A stretch of 64,000 nucleotides of DNA. Source: Dermabacteraceae bacterium TAE3-ERU27. GTDB taxonomy: Bacteria > Actinomycetota > Actinomycetes > Actinomycetales > Dermabacteraceae. The notes under the pieces were generated by a model. That model ran no database searches. It was given only the letters and a program-made list of their open reading frames with translations, and was not told where the DNA came from. The stretch lies in the NCBI GenBank assembly GCA_019218415.1, contig JAHUUL010000001.1:124001-188000 (forward strand). Direction: 5' to 3'. Positions 36,202-42,172 of this stretch are shown piece after piece (the first letter of the stretch is position 1; each line of letters starts with the position of its first letter). Position numbers and translations under genes: made by a program.

Positions 36202-36846
36202 GTGGACTGCCCGAGCGAGTACCGCGCCCTCGCCGAAGAACTTTTCGGTGAGCGGCTTCCCATGGCGCAGGCCTACGCCGAACATCTCGCCACCAGCGGG
36301 GTGGAGCGGGGACTGATTGGTCCGCGCGAAACGGAGCGTCTCTGGGAGCGTCACATCCTCAACTGTGCGCTGCTCGCGCGCGCGGTCCCGGACGGTACGC
36401 GCACCGTGGCCGACGTCGGTTCCGGCGCTGGCCTGCCCGGTATGGTGCTGGCGATTGCCCGCCCCGACCTGTCGGTGACCCTGATCGAGACGATGCTGCG
36501 CCGCACCACCTGGCTGGAAGAGGTGGCGTCGGAGATCGGTCTGGAAATCGAGATCGTGCGTAGCCGTGCCGAAGAACTGCACGGTCAGCGAGTTTTCGAT
36601 GCCGTCACCGCGCGTGCGGTGGCCGCGCTGGATAAGCTGGCGCGCTGGTGTTTGCCCCTGGTGTCCGACGGCGGCAGCCTGCTGGCGTTGAAGGGGCTTT
36701 CCGCGGCGGAAGAGATCGAGAAGGCGCGCAAAGTGCTCAAGAAACTGGGCGGCAGCGAAAGCCAGATATTAACCATTGGCGAGGGCGAGCTTCCCATCCC
36801 CACTAGAGTGGTACGGGTAAGTGTTAGCCGTGCGGCGAAAGGATGA
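36202..36846 (+). CDS. rsmG: 16S rRNA (guanine-N7) methyltransferase RsmG
   Basis: 214 aa, GTG at 36202 only 3 bp after the previous stop. SAM-binding VADVGSGAGLPGMVLAI (about 68-84) and RSRAEEL then VTARAVAALDKLARWCLPLV. Methylates G527 of 16S rRNA. Overlaps parA by 4 nt. Confidence 0.95.
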   Translation: MDCPSEYRALAEELFGERLPMAQAYAEHLATSGVERGLIGPRETERLWERHILNCALLARAVPDGTRTVADVGSGAGLPGMVLAIARPDLSVTLIETMLRRTTWLEEVASEIGLEIEIVRSRAEELHGQRVFDAVTARAVAALDKLARWCLPLVSDGGSLLALKGLSAAEEIEKARKVLKKLGGSESQILTIGEGELPIPTRVVRVSVSRAAKG

Positions 36847-37751
36847 CCGGCGTGGCCGTTGACCCCAACGAAACCCCACTGATGCGTCAGCTTCAGCGCG
36901 ATCACGAACGCCGCCGCGAACTTGAGGGCGCAGTTTTTGAGCCGCCCGCGCAGACCCGCATCTTCACCATCGCAAACCAGAAGGGCGGGGTTGGCAAGAC
37001 CTCGTCGGCCGTGAACATGGCCGCCGCGCTGGCGCTGGGCGGGCTGCGGGTGCTGGTGGTAGACGTCGACCCTCAGGGCAATGCCTCCACGGCGCTTGGT
37101 ATAGACCATCATTCCGAGGTGGCCAGCATGTACGACGTGCTGGTGGACGACATGCCGATGAAGGATGTCGTGCAGCCCTGCCCGGACGTGGAAAACCTGC
37201 TTTGCGCGCCGGCGACGATCGAGCTTTCGGGCGCGGAGATCGAGCTTGTTTCCCTGGTGGCGCGCGAAAATCGCCTCAAGAACGCGATCGCGCAGCTGCT
37301 TCAGGACCTGGACAGCGCGGGTGCCCGCCGGATCGATTACGTGCTTATCGACTGCCCGCCCTCGCTCGGTCTGCTAACCGTGAACGCCCTGGTGGCGGCA
37401 AAGGAAGTGCTCATCCCGATCCAGTGCGAGTACTACGCCCTGGAGGGACTGTCGCAGCTGCTGAAAAACGTGGAGCTGATCAGGACCCACCTGAACCCGC
37501 AGCTCGCAGTCTCAACCATTATGCTGACCATGTTCGATGGGCGTACCAGGTTAGCGGCGCAGGTGGCCGAGGAAGTGCGCGAGCATTTCCCGGATCAGAC
37601 CCTGAACGTAACGATCCCCCGTTCGGTGCGTATCTCGGAAGCCCCGAGCTACGGGCAGACGGTAATTACCTACGATCCTTCGAGCACCGGTGCGCTGGCT
37701 TATCGCGCGGCGGCGAAGGAACTTAACGAGCGCGCAGCCCAGCAGGGCTGA
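36843..37751 (+). CDS. parA: Chromosome partitioning ATPase ParA
   Basis: 302 aa. Deviant Walker A KGGVGKT (about 45-51), DVDPQGNAS, LIDCPPSLGLLTVNAL and YYALEGLSQL. The 35-residue charged N-terminal extension before the ATPase is typical of chromosomal ParA in actinobacteria. Drives segregation with ParB, encoded 73 bp downstream. Confidence 0.97.
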   Translation: MTGVAVDPNETPLMRQLQRDHERRRELEGAVFEPPAQTRIFTIANQKGGVGKTSSAVNMAAALALGGLRVLVVDVDPQGNASTALGIDHHSEVASMYDVLVDDMPMKDVVQPCPDVENLLCAPATIELSGAEIELVSLVARENRLKNAIAQLLQDLDSAGARRIDYVLIDCPPSLGLLTVNALVAAKEVLIPIQCEYYALEGLSQLLKNVELIRTHLNPQLAVSTIMLTMFDGRTRLAAQVAEEVREHFPDQTLNVTIPRSVRISEAPSYGQTVITYDPSSTGALAYRAAAKELNERAAQQG

Positions 37752-37824: not shown

Positions 37825-39222
37825 ATGACGCAGAAGCGAGGACTCGGACGCGGTTTGGGCGCCCTGATTCCGGGCGCTACCGGCAGTAGCAAACCGGGCG
37901 GTGCCACACCTCAGCGTCAGCGCGGCGGAGTGCTTGGTGCGCTCGGCACGCCGGCAGAAGCTGCTCCCGCAGACGAGGCTCCGCAGCAGCAGGCTGAGGA
38001 AGCCCCGGCAGCGAGCGAAACCCCTGTCGAAGAGGGCAAGGCGCGCCCGGTAGACATGTTCTTTAGCGGTCCGCCGAGCCGGAAGCTGTCCAGCTCCATC
38101 GATCTGGTGGGTGACCTACAGAAGTCGGCCGTGGCGCGAAAGGCGCGGGGCAAGAAGAAGCCCGCCGCCGCAGCCAAGGGGACACAGGAGAAGGAAAACG
38201 CGTCGGTTTCTGCAGGCGCGAAGGAGGAGACCGCCAAGGCCCCTCAGAGCGCACAGGCGGATCGGAAATCGCAGGAGCCTAGCAAGGCGGCAAAGGCGGC
38301 GGAAAAGGCCGCTGTAGCCCCCGAGAAGGCCGTGCAGGCGGAGGTTGGGGCCAGCGGCGTCGCTGCCGCTCCCTCCCCCGAGGGCGAGGGCCTGCGCCCC
38401 GTACCGGGAGCGACTTTCGCGGAAATTCCGATCAGCGAGATTCGAGAAAACCCGCGCAACCCGCGCACCATGTTCGACGAGGACGCGCTGGATGAACTCG
38501 CGTTCTCCCTGCGCGAGGTGGGCGTTTTGCAGCCCGTCGTGGTGCGCACGATTCCGGCCACCGACGAGGGCGAATCTTTCGAGCTGGTTATGGGCGAGCG
38601 CCGCTGGCGTGCCGCGCAGCGGGCCGGACTGGACACCATTCCCGCGATCATTCGGGAAACCACGGACGACGACCTGCTGCGTGATGCGCTGCTGGAGAAC
38701 CTGCACCGTGCGCAGCTGAACCCGCTGGAAGAGGCTGCCGCCTACCAGCAGTTGCTGGAAGATTTCGGTTGCTCTCACGATGAGCTTTCGCAGCGGATCG
38801 GGCGTTCCCGGCCGCAGATTTCCAACTCCCTGCGCCTGCTGCGCCTGCCCCCGCTGGTGCAGCGCCGCCTGGCAGCCGGGGCGATCACGGCGGGCCACGC
38901 ACGCGCCCTGGTGACGCTGGATAACCCCACGCTGGTAGAAGAACTGTGCCAGCGCATCATCACCGAGGGGCTTTCGGTACGCGCCGTGGAGCGCCTAGTT
39001 GGGCAGGGCACCATCGCAGCGGTTAAGCGAGTGCCGCGCCGCACCAGCTACGATCCGCACGTTGTGGAGGCAACTTCTCGCTTGGCGACCAGGTTCGAGG
39101 CCCCGGTACGGATCGACGTGGGCAAGCGTAAAGGCAAGATCACCATGGAGTTCACGAACATGGAGGATCTGGACCGGCTGCTGGCGAAGCTCGGCATCGA
39201 AACCACGCTGGAGAACGAATAA
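37825..39222 (+). CDS. parB: Chromosome partitioning protein ParB, with a long disordered N-terminal insert
   Basis: 465 aa, about 130 longer than usual. The N-terminus KRGLGRGLGALIPGA is the ParA-stimulating motif. Residues about 30-190 are Ala/Lys/Glu/Pro-rich and disordered. The Spo0J core begins near 195 (AEIPISEIRENPRNPRTMFDED), with the CTP-binding motif GERRWRAAQRAGL (about 255-268), helix-turn-helix RIGRSRPQISNSLRLLRLPP (about 325-345) and C-terminal dimer domain near 425-465. ATG at 37825, with GAAGGA upstream. Its binding sites lie in the 2 kb just downstream. Confidence 0.97.
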   Translation: MTQKRGLGRGLGALIPGATGSSKPGGATPQRQRGGVLGALGTPAEAAPADEAPQQQAEEAPAASETPVEEGKARPVDMFFSGPPSRKLSSSIDLVGDLQKSAVARKARGKKKPAAAAKGTQEKENASVSAGAKEETAKAPQSAQADRKSQEPSKAAKAAEKAAVAPEKAVQAEVGASGVAAAPSPEGEGLRPVPGATFAEIPISEIRENPRNPRTMFDEDALDELAFSLREVGVLQPVVVRTIPATDEGESFELVMGERRWRAAQRAGLDTIPAIIRETTDDDLLRDALLENLHRAQLNPLEEAAAYQQLLEDFGCSHDELSQRIGRSRPQISNSLRLLRLPPLVQRRLAAGAITAGHARALVTLDNPTLVEELCQRIITEGLSVRAVERLVGQGTIAAVKRVPRRTSYDPHVVEATSRLATRFEAPVRIDVGKRKGKITMEFTNMEDLDRLLAKLGIETTLENE

Positions 39223-39378
39223 GACGGAGGGCGGGAAATCCCTAATTTGTATCAAGCAAATGATACATAAAGGGTGGTTTTTTCGATCCTAGACGCTAGT
39301 TCACGTGTATTTCGGAGCCGAATCAGCCGTGAAAATCCTTCTCTAAGAAGACATAACTGCTGGTCAGAGCCATATTTA

Positions 39379-39410
39379 TACCCCGTACCCCGGTACGGGG
39401 TATTTTTTAT
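39379..39410 (+). terminator. Rho-independent terminator of parAB
   Basis: 12-bp stem ATACCCCGTACC / GGTACGGGGTAT with a 2-nt loop, followed by TTTTTTAT. It lies 156 bp after parB and overlaps the start of a DnaA box. Confidence 0.9.
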
Positions 39411-39415
39411 CCACA
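39407..39415 (+). promoter_or_regulatory. DnaA box TTATCCACA
   Basis: Perfect match, immediately after the parAB terminator stem. Confidence 0.6.
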
Positions 39416-39456
39416 TTTTTCTGCACAGTGTGTGAAAAAGCATCGCGGGTATCGCG

Positions 39457-40641
39457 GTTTCACATGAAACACGGACTCCGAGGCCGAAGTGGTTGAGAGG
39501 CGGTTGGCGTTAATTCATACGCTTTTCGCCTCGCCGTTTTGGTTATGCGCGTAAAAATTTTCATGTGAATCGGCTTTTTAAGCTATTTCCCTGAGCTGTC
39601 TCTTGCTTGCAGACGCGGAGAAGCCCTACTGGTTATACATGGATTGTGCACAACTGTGGAATCAAGTTTCACGTGAAACTCATGAGATGCAAGCTATGAC
39701 TGCGACATGTCGTGTAATTTTCAGAGTCTCGGAACAACAGCGTGCAACTGATGCACACGGAAGATGTTTCACGTGGAACTGTGCGGCATACACGTCCGAA
39801 TACTGGGGCAGCCTGAGACTTTGCTTTTTTGCGCAACAGGTTTCACGTGAAACATGTTCTCTTCTAATCAAATTGGCAGAGTTCTACACCAGACGTTCCA
39901 CGTGAAACCTGCGCTCGTAAAGTATTTTTAGTGAGCGTTTCACGTGAAACAGAATCACTACGCGATGAGTGCCGGTATCTGCATCGACCGCCGGAAAAGT
40001 TTTCTAGCAAGTTTCACGTGAAGCGTGATTGTGGCGTTTCATATCTTCGCGTCCAAGCGCAAACAACGGTTCCACGTGAAACAACGGGTAACGCAAAGGA
40101 CGCAGATAAATTAAATGCACTACGGGCTAAAAGTTTCACGTGAAACCGTAACACCTATGAGCGTCCCTTTTGTAAGTAAATGTTTCACGTGAAACGTGAT
40201 TATTGCTTCCATTTGAAACGCCGCAAAGTTTCGACCGACACCCACTCCGATATACAGCTCTTGGTTTCACGTGAAACCATGAAACGGACATCACTAGGCA
40301 GCTACAGTGCATACCTGGTTTCACGTGGAACCAGGTTACGCATACTAAATAAAGGTGTCCCTGTTTGGTGGGTTTCACGTGAAACTTATCCGGCACAATC
40401 CCTAGAGAACTAGAGCATCGTGTTCCACGTGAAACCGGTATGAATGTTGATTTGGGCTTGCTGGTATGCGATCAAACTTATTACTTATCGTCCCAACCGA
40501 ATTGATCCCTCTGTATGGAGCTCTCTTGCCTACCCAATAGGGAACTCCTGGTGAATAGTCATGTGACTAACCAACCCTAGTTTCTTGTGAACACGCTGCT
40601 ATCACCCAGTGTGGATAATCGGTGAATGTTTCACGTGAATC
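39457..40641. repeat. parS array: 15 ParB-binding sites in 1.2 kb
   Basis: The 14-mer GTTTCACGTGAAAC recurs 15 times, always as a palindrome. Exact copies start at 39666, 39840, 39937, 40133, 40182, 40264 and 40372. Single-mismatch copies start at 39457, 39766, 39895, 40011, 40069, 40318, 40422 and 40628. From 39666 to 40435 the 13 sites are 42-100 bp apart, mean about 63. There is no gene here: the interval 39223-41239 is non-coding. Chromosomal parS (TGTTTCACGTGAAACA) is a long-established ParB target, so this is the centromere of the parAB system encoded alongside. Confidence 0.95.
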
Positions 40642-40795
40642 TGCGCCAGAGTGACAATATTTTCGTTCGATTAACGCCATTCCGGGCTACTTATCCACAA
40701 AAAGAAAAAATATTTCCACCGCGCTGCGCGTGCCTAAGCACTTCAGCACGATTTATCCACATTTTTCTCCCAAGTAATCCATATTTTGTGGATAA
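40610..40795. promoter_or_regulatory. Cluster of four perfect DnaA boxes
   Basis: TGTGGATAA at 40610, TTATCCACA at 40691 and 40753, TGTGGATAA at 40787, with AT-rich AAAAAGAAAAAATATTT between. Perfect matches to TTATCCACA. Could be a second initiation region, a DnaA titration site, or part of an origin that extends beyond dnaA. Confidence 0.7.
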
Positions 40796-40944
40796 CGGAC
40801 TCGAACTCCCAGATATGAGGTAGGTCACTATTCTTAATGGGTGCCCTAATCATCCGTTATGGCTTTGTGCATGGGAGCCGCCCGTTGGTCCACTCAGATG
40901 GACTTAGGGCAGGCAAGTGCGCGCGGGTGCAGTGTTTGTGCTAG

Positions 40945-41035
40945 CCGTGTTTTGTAGCGTTAATGCACCTAAACGGTAGACGGCAGGGCAAAAAGGGCGG
41001 TTAGCACCCACCCCAAATGTAAGGATTGGGCGGCG
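40945..41035. repeat. Decayed GTGCAC-type repeat, copy E
   Basis: GTTTTGTAGCGTTAATGCACCTAAACGGTAG and GGTTAGCACCC..AAATGTAAGG match the right half of copies C and F, with several substitutions and losses. The nearby GCGGGTGCAGTG may be the remains of the left half. It is the only copy in the parB-trxB gap. Confidence 0.5.
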
Positions 41036-41147
41036 CAAAGTCTGGTACGCGGTAGTGCTTACGCCACTACTGAAGAGATCCGGTATCCCCCGGAATGCGG
41101 CACCCGGGCAGAGCGAAGACAACTTAAAAAGGGCACAAACACCAAAA

Positions 41148-41188
41148 CCGGGGCCTGGAGAACGGCAAACCGTTCACCCAGACCCCGG
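41148..41188 (-). terminator. Probable terminator of trxB
   Basis: Stem CCGGGGCCTGG / CCCAGACCCCGG with one mismatch and a stem-loop in the loop (GAACGG / CCGTTC). On the minus strand it is followed by TTTTGGTGTTTG and a run of T. It lies 52 bp past trxB. Confidence 0.65.
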
Positions 41189-41239
41189 ATCGGCAGCCCA
41201 TCCCTGCGCAAGCCTTTCGCAGAGGTGGGTTGAAAAGTT

Positions 41240-42172
41240 TTATTCGCCCAGCGCAGCCAGGTAACGCTCCGCATCCAGGGCGGCGGCGCAGCCGGAACCG
41301 GCAGCCGTAATTGCCTGACGGTAGGTGTGGTCAACCACGTCGCCGCAGGCGAAAACGCCCGGCAGCGAGGTGCGGGTGGAACGTCCCTCGACCACGATGT
41401 AGCCCTCGTCGTCCAGATCGATTTGCCCCTGCATCAACTCGGTACGCGGCAGGTGGCCGATCGCCTCGAACAGTGCGGCAACCTCAAGCCGACGCTCGGA
41501 ACCGTCAACGGTGTCGCGCAGGGTGATTGCCTCCAGCGCGTTTTCACCGTGCAGGGCAACCACTTCGCTATTCCAGGCGAAGCTCAGCTTCGGATCGTCC
41601 TCAGCACGCTTCGCCATGATCTTCGAGGCGCGCAGCGTATCGCGGCGGTGAATCAGGGTAACGGACTTTGCGAAACGGGTCAGGAAGGTGGCCTCCTCTA
41701 CGGCGCTATCGCCGCCGCCCACCACAGCGATGTCGCGATCCTTGAAGAAGAAACCGTCACAGGTGGCGCACCAGCTAACGCCGCGCCCCGACAGACGCTT
41801 TTCCCCGTCGATGCCCAGCTCGCGGTACGCGGAACCGGTCGCCAAAATGATGGCCTTGCCCTCGTAAACAGTGCCGTCTTCGCAGGTCACGCGCTTTGCA
41901 GCAAGGTCCAGCTCGGTGGCGTCCTCATACAGCAGCTCCGCCCCGAAACGTTCGGCCTGCTCCTGCATGTTCGTCATCAGTTCCGGGCCCATGATGCCCT
42001 CGGGGAAGCCGGGGAAATTCTCTACCTCGGTGGTGTTCATAAGGGCGCCGCCGGCAGCCAGCGAACCCGCGATTACCAGGGGGCTGAGGCCCGCGCGGGC
42101 CGCGTACACGGCGGCGGTGTACCCGGCGGGGCCGGAACCGACGATGATTACTTCACGCTGAATAGCGCTCAT
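41240..42172 (-). CDS. trxB: Thioredoxin-disulfide reductase
   Basis: 310 aa. FAD-binding [17 protein letters not shown] (about 12-28), redox CATC (about 134-137), NADPH-binding [10 protein letters not shown] and C-terminal GVFACGDV. Cytoplasmic. Unlike in many actinobacteria, no trxA follows it: the next features downstream are a terminator and the parS region. Confidence 0.97.

Follow-up and report, generated by a model that had tools for sequence, protein, structure and literature searches.

The window, by which we mean the whole 64-kb stretch of DNA from Dermabacteraceae bacterium TAE3-ERU27 that was analysed, contains the genes dnaN-dnaA-rnpA-yidC-rsmG-parA-parB in their usual order, followed by a 2-kb interval and by trxB on the other strand. 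Gene names were read from the open reading frames, and ParA, ParB and TrxB were confirmed by Pfam. The parA gene (36843–37751, forward strand) encodes a Walker-type ParA ATPase of 302 residues (AAA_31, 7.9e-57; CbiA, 4e-26), and parB (37825–39222, forward strand) encodes a protein of 465 residues with ParB_N (residues 198–294), HTH_ParB (residues 297–394) and ParB_C (residues 410–457) domains; among solved structures, the closest matches to it are chains 6sdk (stage 0 sporulation protein J, 4.7e-49) and 6t1f (ParB, 4.5e-48). An Ala/Lys-rich N-terminal extension of ∼190 residues precedes the CTPase domain of ParB, which begins at residue 198; in the organism's own family (denoted f1) the ParB open frames, measured from stop to stop in genomes with an unbroken match, are up to 460–903 residues long. 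The adjacent ParA ATPase, the ParB with its ParB_N, HTH and C-terminal dimer domains and the palindromic parS sequence GTTTCACGTGAAAC near parAB place the locus among the chromosomal ParABS (type Ia) systems. Beyond the interval lies trxB (41240–42172, reverse strand; Pyr_redox_2, 6.2e-51), a conserved gene that has this position in the f1 genomes read as well.

The interval between parB and trxB contains no recognisable gene: its single open reading frame of at least 100 residues begins with TTG and matches no Pfam family, and an Rfam search of positions 39000–41500 returned no family above threshold. The earlier note had described the interval as free of genes, which was upheld, and a small RNA or gene inside it was rejected as a candidate. 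A terminator scan identified a hairpin and T run resembling an intrinsic terminator 3′ of parB (39378–39403, forward strand). Terminator-like hits in the region number six, against 2.1 expected, with one after parB and one overlapping parS site 10; no promoter-like hit was found there (2.0 expected).

Fifteen parS sites resembling GTTTCACGTGAAAC are located between parB and trxB at positions 39457–40641 (1,185 bp), all listed on the forward strand. Seven are exact, namely sites 2 (39666–39679), 4 (39840–39853), 6 (39937–39950), 9 (40133–40146), 10 (40182–40195), 11 (40264–40277) and 13 (40372–40385), and eight have one mismatch, namely sites 1 (39457–39470), 3 (39766–39779), 5 (39895–39908), 7 (40011–40024), 8 (40069–40082), 12 (40318–40331), 14 (40422–40435) and 15 (40628–40641). 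The 13 inner sites (39666–40435) are spaced 42–100 bp apart, and the two outermost sites are set off from these by 209 and 206 bp. The scan agrees with the earlier note in the numbers of exact and one-mismatch sites and in the 42–100 bp spacing of 13 of them; the note had also proposed a genome-wide count and a comparison of the interval in relatives. No further site was found in the 64-kb window with up to two mismatches, for which shuffled windows gave a mean of 0.12 sites and a maximum of one. The draft genome (1,998,373 bases in 37 contigs) is 98.05% complete. Every site in it that matches parS with no more than one mismatch, 15 in total, belongs to the array, and the two parS-like places with two mismatches found elsewhere equal the number obtained with a reversed-pattern control (two). 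As in compact clusters of the Myxococcus xanthus type, in which nearly all sites fall within a few kilobases, the sites are confined to a short segment (15 of 15 in 1,185 bp). The GC content of the array interval is ∼46%, compared with ∼63% in its flanks. The array is not a tandem repeat, because nothing but a core of about 16 bp recurs, and the spacers are unrelated to one another; tandem duplication was accordingly ruled out as its source, and the array differs from an iterated plasmid-style centromere, in which the repeat unit includes the spacer. Helical phasing was sought in the parS spacings and gave no signal.

Family f1 is represented by 47 genomes, with ParB matched in 43. Four genomes (G046, G049, G050 and G052, of 410–750 contigs each) gave no match in the ParB search, and the par region was read in 40, that is, in the ParB-positive genomes apart from G051, G032 and G047. 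A duplicate contig of G002 (L099) was left out of the DnaA-box, AT-minimum and spacing counts, and G003 was also left out of the DnaA-box counts. Between parB and trxB, all 40 genomes read contain 10–18 parS sites (at most two mismatches). The array spans 1.1–4.3 kb in 39 of them and 6.7 kb in G003; G039, whose sites fall into two groups separated by 2.8 kb, was included among the compact arrays. Many sites in the large genus g4 have two mismatches, and G033 has 13 sites of which only two have at most one. In the g4 arrays, alongside GTTTCAC (302 among 788 half-sites counted), many half-sites are GTTTCCC (126) or GTTTCGC (41), a drift at the motif centre that might track recognition by ParB.

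The yidC–parB block of the window genome is 93% identical to that of G001, a genome of the same genus, and the parB–trxB interval is 52% identical over 1,732 columns, 474 of them gapped. With the parS sites and two DnaA-box blocks removed, the identity of the interval is 44%, and twelve shuffles of the G001 stretch give 39–42%. The conserved islands are the parS sites (15 in the window genome and 13 in G001) and the DnaA-box blocks at both array edges; the hairpin after parB and the DnaA-box block adjoining it are kept in G001, but the spacers are not. Spacer DNA thus turns over almost completely while the dense set of sites is retained.

Compact parS clusters are common in the order. Among 40 genomes from 16 other families, 37 have 2–12 sites (at most one mismatch) in the 13–20 kb read around parB, spanning 5 kb or less in 31 genomes and 6.5–15 kb in six; the remaining three, all from family f8, have no parS site in the 13–20 kb read. 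Six of seven other-family genomes scanned in full have every site, among the matches listed, in one cluster of 0.9–3.5 kb. The sites lie mostly upstream of parA in 25 of the 37 genomes and downstream of parB in six, which are all four f6 genomes and two of the four f7 genomes. When a collection covering 84,980 species was searched for parS triplets with 40–70 bp spacing, at least 119 stretches from many phyla were found, 42 of which have a ParA or ParB match in the stretch examined. The window has 15 sites within 1.25 kb, and the best of these at least 119 stretches has 13 (with a 41–43 bp period, in a Bacilli MAG). Since compact clusters are common in the order and dense triplets occur in many phyla, the array is ordinary in kind; it stands at the dense extreme among the genomes and stretches sampled. 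That chromosomes usually have their parS sites strewn over tens of kilobases, as the earlier note assumed, is not borne out: 31 of 40 other-family genomes have spans of at most 5 kb, dense triplets are found in many phyla, M. xanthus has a compact cluster (PMC3899335) and published work describes scattering as restricted to few lineages (PMC8357415). Two further layouts were seen among the relatives. Upstream of parA, the par locus of G113 (family f12; L253) has a series of six parS sites at exact 28-bp intervals. The 20 kb read around parAB in the f4 genomes G274 and G078 (L279 and L283) contain parA, parB and parA-side DnaA boxes but no parS site within one mismatch of the consensus; G274 is judged to lack ScpB.

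A search of the TAE3-ERU27 genome for ScpB gave no match. Three SMC_N matches exceed the cut-off, in open frames of 434, 566 and 603 residues, the first of which is a recF-like gene beside dnaN; the longest SMC_N-matching frame (1,107 residues) is matched at 26 positions only (6.5e-4). The combination of SMC and ScpB that characterises an SMC-loading centre was therefore not detected in this genome, a point that lay beyond the reach of the earlier note. In f1 as a whole the SMC model passes the cut-off in one of 47 genomes (G003, 7.7e-271), and the other 46, five of which are less than 90% complete, have weak partial matches of 3e-12 at best; among control genomes the model passes in ten of 14. 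ScpB was found in one of 36 f1 genomes (again G003) versus 22 of 22 others, and across the order in 259 of 298 genomes, with all 20 listed of the 39 ScpB-less genomes belonging to f1. In a seven-gene tree the 39 SMC-less f1 genomes form one clade (support 0.98) with G003 as its sister. MksF is present in all 47 f1 genomes. The Mks condensin locus of TAE3-ERU27 (contig C23 of G000, 94157–95557; L273, 8107–13622) lies beside tgt and runs tgt, MksF, MksE, MksB (1,114 residues); the next open reading frame after mksB encodes a CshA-repeat protein, and no MksG (JetD) nuclease was found at the locus. G001 has the same gene order, and in G006 tgt is beside MksF, with MksE and MksB 4 kb further on. 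In G003, MksG is beside MksB, and this MksB is only 25% identical to that of TAE3-ERU27.

The dense array might then be an adaptation to the loss of SMC-ScpAB, in which a larger amount of ParB on a short segment would replace SMC in compacting the origin or would load MksF/MksE/MksB. The median parS spacing is in keeping with this: it is 133 bp (range 61–258 bp) in the 39 SMC-less f1 genomes and 466 bp in G003, the sole SMC-positive member, sister to the rest and holder of the loosest f1 array. Outside f1 it is 570 bp across four f6 genomes, and for f7, in which two genomes had sufficient sites downstream, it is 249 bp. The family-wide MksF and the presence of MksG beside the Mks genes of G003 but not at the TAE3-ERU27 locus point in the same direction, as do two of five ScpB-less f4 genomes, each with eight sites over 3.2–3.3 kb, four of them 42–105 bp apart. 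However, the loss in f1 is one single evolutionary event, the f7 spacing overlaps the SMC-less range, the ScpB-positive G113 reaches eight sites in 1.25 kb and the other three ScpB-less f4 genomes have at most one site. As an independent test, these five genomes (G256, G274, G283, G291 and G299, with confirmed f4 membership and an apparent lack of ScpB) gave a mixed to negative result: their site counts (at most one mismatch), in ascending order, are 0, 1, 1, 8 and 8, which does not bear out SMC loss as a simple cause of density; a further five f4 genomes (G078, G130, G142, G154 and G217, with 0, 1, 1, 1 and 2 sites), in which the absence of ScpB is presumed, were not counted. Eleven ScpB-positive f4 genomes have 3–8 sites, and one of them, G188, has three sites 36 bp apart. 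Because ScpB-less f4 genomes can be sparse and SMC-positive genomes dense, SMC status does not set the parS layout. In Corynebacterium glutamicum, moreover, MksBEFG is described as being without obvious influence on nucleoid architecture (PMC7083940). We consider this adaptation unlikely.

Five perfect DnaA boxes, TTATCCACA, which the earlier note does not mention, are found in the parB–trxB interval. One marks the left array edge (39407–39415, forward strand) and four lie within 186 bp at the right edge (40610–40795), at 40610–40618 (reverse strand, just before parS site 15), 40691–40699 (forward), 40753–40761 (forward) and 40787–40795 (reverse); the left-edge box and the two forward boxes on the right also occur in G001. 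The whole genome has 15 perfect boxes, so that a third of them are at this locus, and a reversed control gives three. The presence of DnaA boxes at the parS locus is the arrangement expected of a DnaA-bound centromere. We then counted strict boxes (TTRTCCACA) across f1, taking as the right flank the 700 bp next to the array. All 39 genomes have a strict box there (two or more in 32, one in seven), with totals of 96 to the right of the array (26.7 kb), three within the arrays themselves (72.2 kb), 11 to the left (22.9 kb) and 93 in the remaining 612 kb, to which the dnaA region belongs. With the reversed pattern the corresponding counts are 0, 0, 1 and 0. G003 has no strict box to the right of its array and three copies of TTTTCCACA instead. 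At least two strict boxes lie just upstream of parA in 18 of 21 f4 genomes; of 39 genomes from neither f1 nor f4, only five have a pair of strict boxes in the rsmG–trxB interval. As the f4 boxes upstream of parA are found in genomes with the SMC partner ScpB, DnaA boxes near par are not tied to SMC loss.

The boxes beside the array could instead mark the replication origin or part of a split origin, in which case origin and centromere would be fused. The array edge holds the densest group of perfect DnaA boxes in the genome, its right flank includes a 40-bp stretch of 30% GC and the position of the boxes beside the array is conserved in f1. In a weighted scoring of DnaA boxes, for which 18 f1 stretches were listed, 15 of them including dnaA, the array-edge group scores highest in six of the 15 (G055, G009, G004, G039, G034 and G056), but the dnaA-side group outscores it in eight, and in the window genome the two regions tie (22 and 22). 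Nor do the AT-rich minima speak for the array edge, being lower there in 14 of 36 cases and equal in 11, and the cumulative skew minimum (over 400 kb) is at 148 kb of the contig, compared with 163.5–164.6 kb for the array; fourfold-site skew of nine genes was uninformative for origin placement, and neither skew nor AT content is decisive on this point. Because many f4 genomes have several dnaN–dnaA boxes as well as parA-side ones, the reading of the par-side boxes as an additional element, similar to that of the Caulobacter centromere, is favoured, and an origin at the array appears rather improbable to us. A titration or regulatory sink for DnaA, modelled on datA, would merely share free intergenic space with parS. 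Strict boxes are indeed rare within the array, and their number and layout differ between species, as such a sink would allow; yet the boxes adjoin parS in 39 of 39 f1 genomes and recur upstream of parA in 18 of 21 f4 genomes, which suggests a link to par, and we consider a simple sink rather improbable. Capture of a plasmid-type centromere by the chromosome, for which compactness alone speaks, is very improbable given the standard chromosomal parS consensus, the usual domains of ParB, spacers that are not tandem repeats and the same syntenic position in the 40 f1 genomes read, so that the earlier note's single compact array beside parAB is supported and nothing points to a plasmid origin.

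We regard it as probable, with some reserve, that the array is the sole centromere of this chromosome, from which ParB would be loaded at one point for ParA-driven segregation without SMC, and at the edge of which DnaA would act. This reading is drawn from sequence, namely from the sites, their uniqueness, their conservation in the face of spacer turnover, the DnaA boxes and the failure to detect SMC or ScpB. We infer from these features that ParB binds and is loaded at the array: the 15 sites, being adjacent, would act in effect as a single point at which ParB dimers load as CTP clamps, which would slide outward and build one partition complex. The heavy loading of ParB from one point that the earlier note suggested as a possibility is plausible. 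ParA would move the single complex, and the many sites would serve ParA-driven segregation and not SMC loading, an assignment made because the lineage has no recognisable SMC. DnaA would bind the boxes at the trxB-side edge and so, as the replication initiator, influence the centromere directly, in the way reported for Caulobacter, and would couple the partition complex to replication, and the MksF/MksE/MksB condensin may have taken over the duties of SMC. Published work connects the possession of several parS sites with SMC loading and suggests, for Bacillus subtilis, that clustering keeps SMC complexes from colliding (PMC8357415). If collision avoidance were the main reason for clustering, relaxation would be predicted after SMC loss; the sites stay many and close, which argues that their number serves the partition complex itself. 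They may, alternatively, provide robustness only, since a single parS site is enough for wild-type-like growth in C. glutamicum (PMC7083940). A broader scenario, which we put forward tentatively and with considerable doubt, is that the clade lost SMC-ScpAB, kept a vertically inherited, nuclease-less MksF/MksE/MksB as its main condensin and remodelled the centromere into a dense parS array with DnaA at its edge, giving a replication-coupled, SMC-independent unit of ∼1.5 kb.

A clade apparently without SMC but with 10–18 close sites separates the SMC-loading role of parS from its other roles. Site number has been maintained in it with no recognisable SMC to load, and the lineage is a natural test of what parS clusters are for. 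Thanks to the DnaA boxes at the edge, a direct coupling of initiator and centromere can be put to the test in Gram-positive bacteria, and the occurrence of MksF throughout f1 offers a starting point for studying a possible condensin swap.

Several known systems resemble parts of this arrangement. TAE3-ERU27 encodes MksF, MksE and MksB, as do MksBEFG/Wadjet systems (PMC10123090), but its locus has no adjoining MksG/JetD nuclease. Tandem parS arrays of 9–13 sites at 41–58 bp were found in Bacilli and Ruminococcus MAGs (L165, L121 and L214; one L121 site is 569 bp off); these have a near-constant period and resemble tandem repeats, whereas the window array varies in both spacing and spacers, and a ParA and ParB match is present in the stretch examined of L214 and in neither of those of L165 and L121. 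In the open-licence literature, a Streptomyces review that names Brachybacterium once is silent on this family in its parS passages. Caulobacter crescentus shares DnaA boxes at the parS locus; there, DnaA binds to parS and promotes partitioning even when its level is insufficient to start replication (PMC6399470, on Mera et al., 2014). This species belongs to an unrelated lineage, and its five functional parS sites have a multi-peaked arrangement (PMC10387095). C. glutamicum has, like TAE3-ERU27, an actinobacterial chromosome with clustered parS sites and ParABS segregation; its ten sites form one cluster over 35 kb, 73 kb from oriC, and also load SMC (PMC7083940), compared with 1.2 kb here. 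The closest published case that we found in the sources consulted is M. xanthus, in which 22 parS sites occupy some 3 kb that lie roughly 4 kb upstream of parA (PMC3899335, PMC3778016). The array described here differs in having 15 sites in 1.2 kb downstream of parB, DnaA boxes at its borders and no detectable SMC in the genome, and in both species many parS sites are gathered in one compact chromosomal cluster near parAB.
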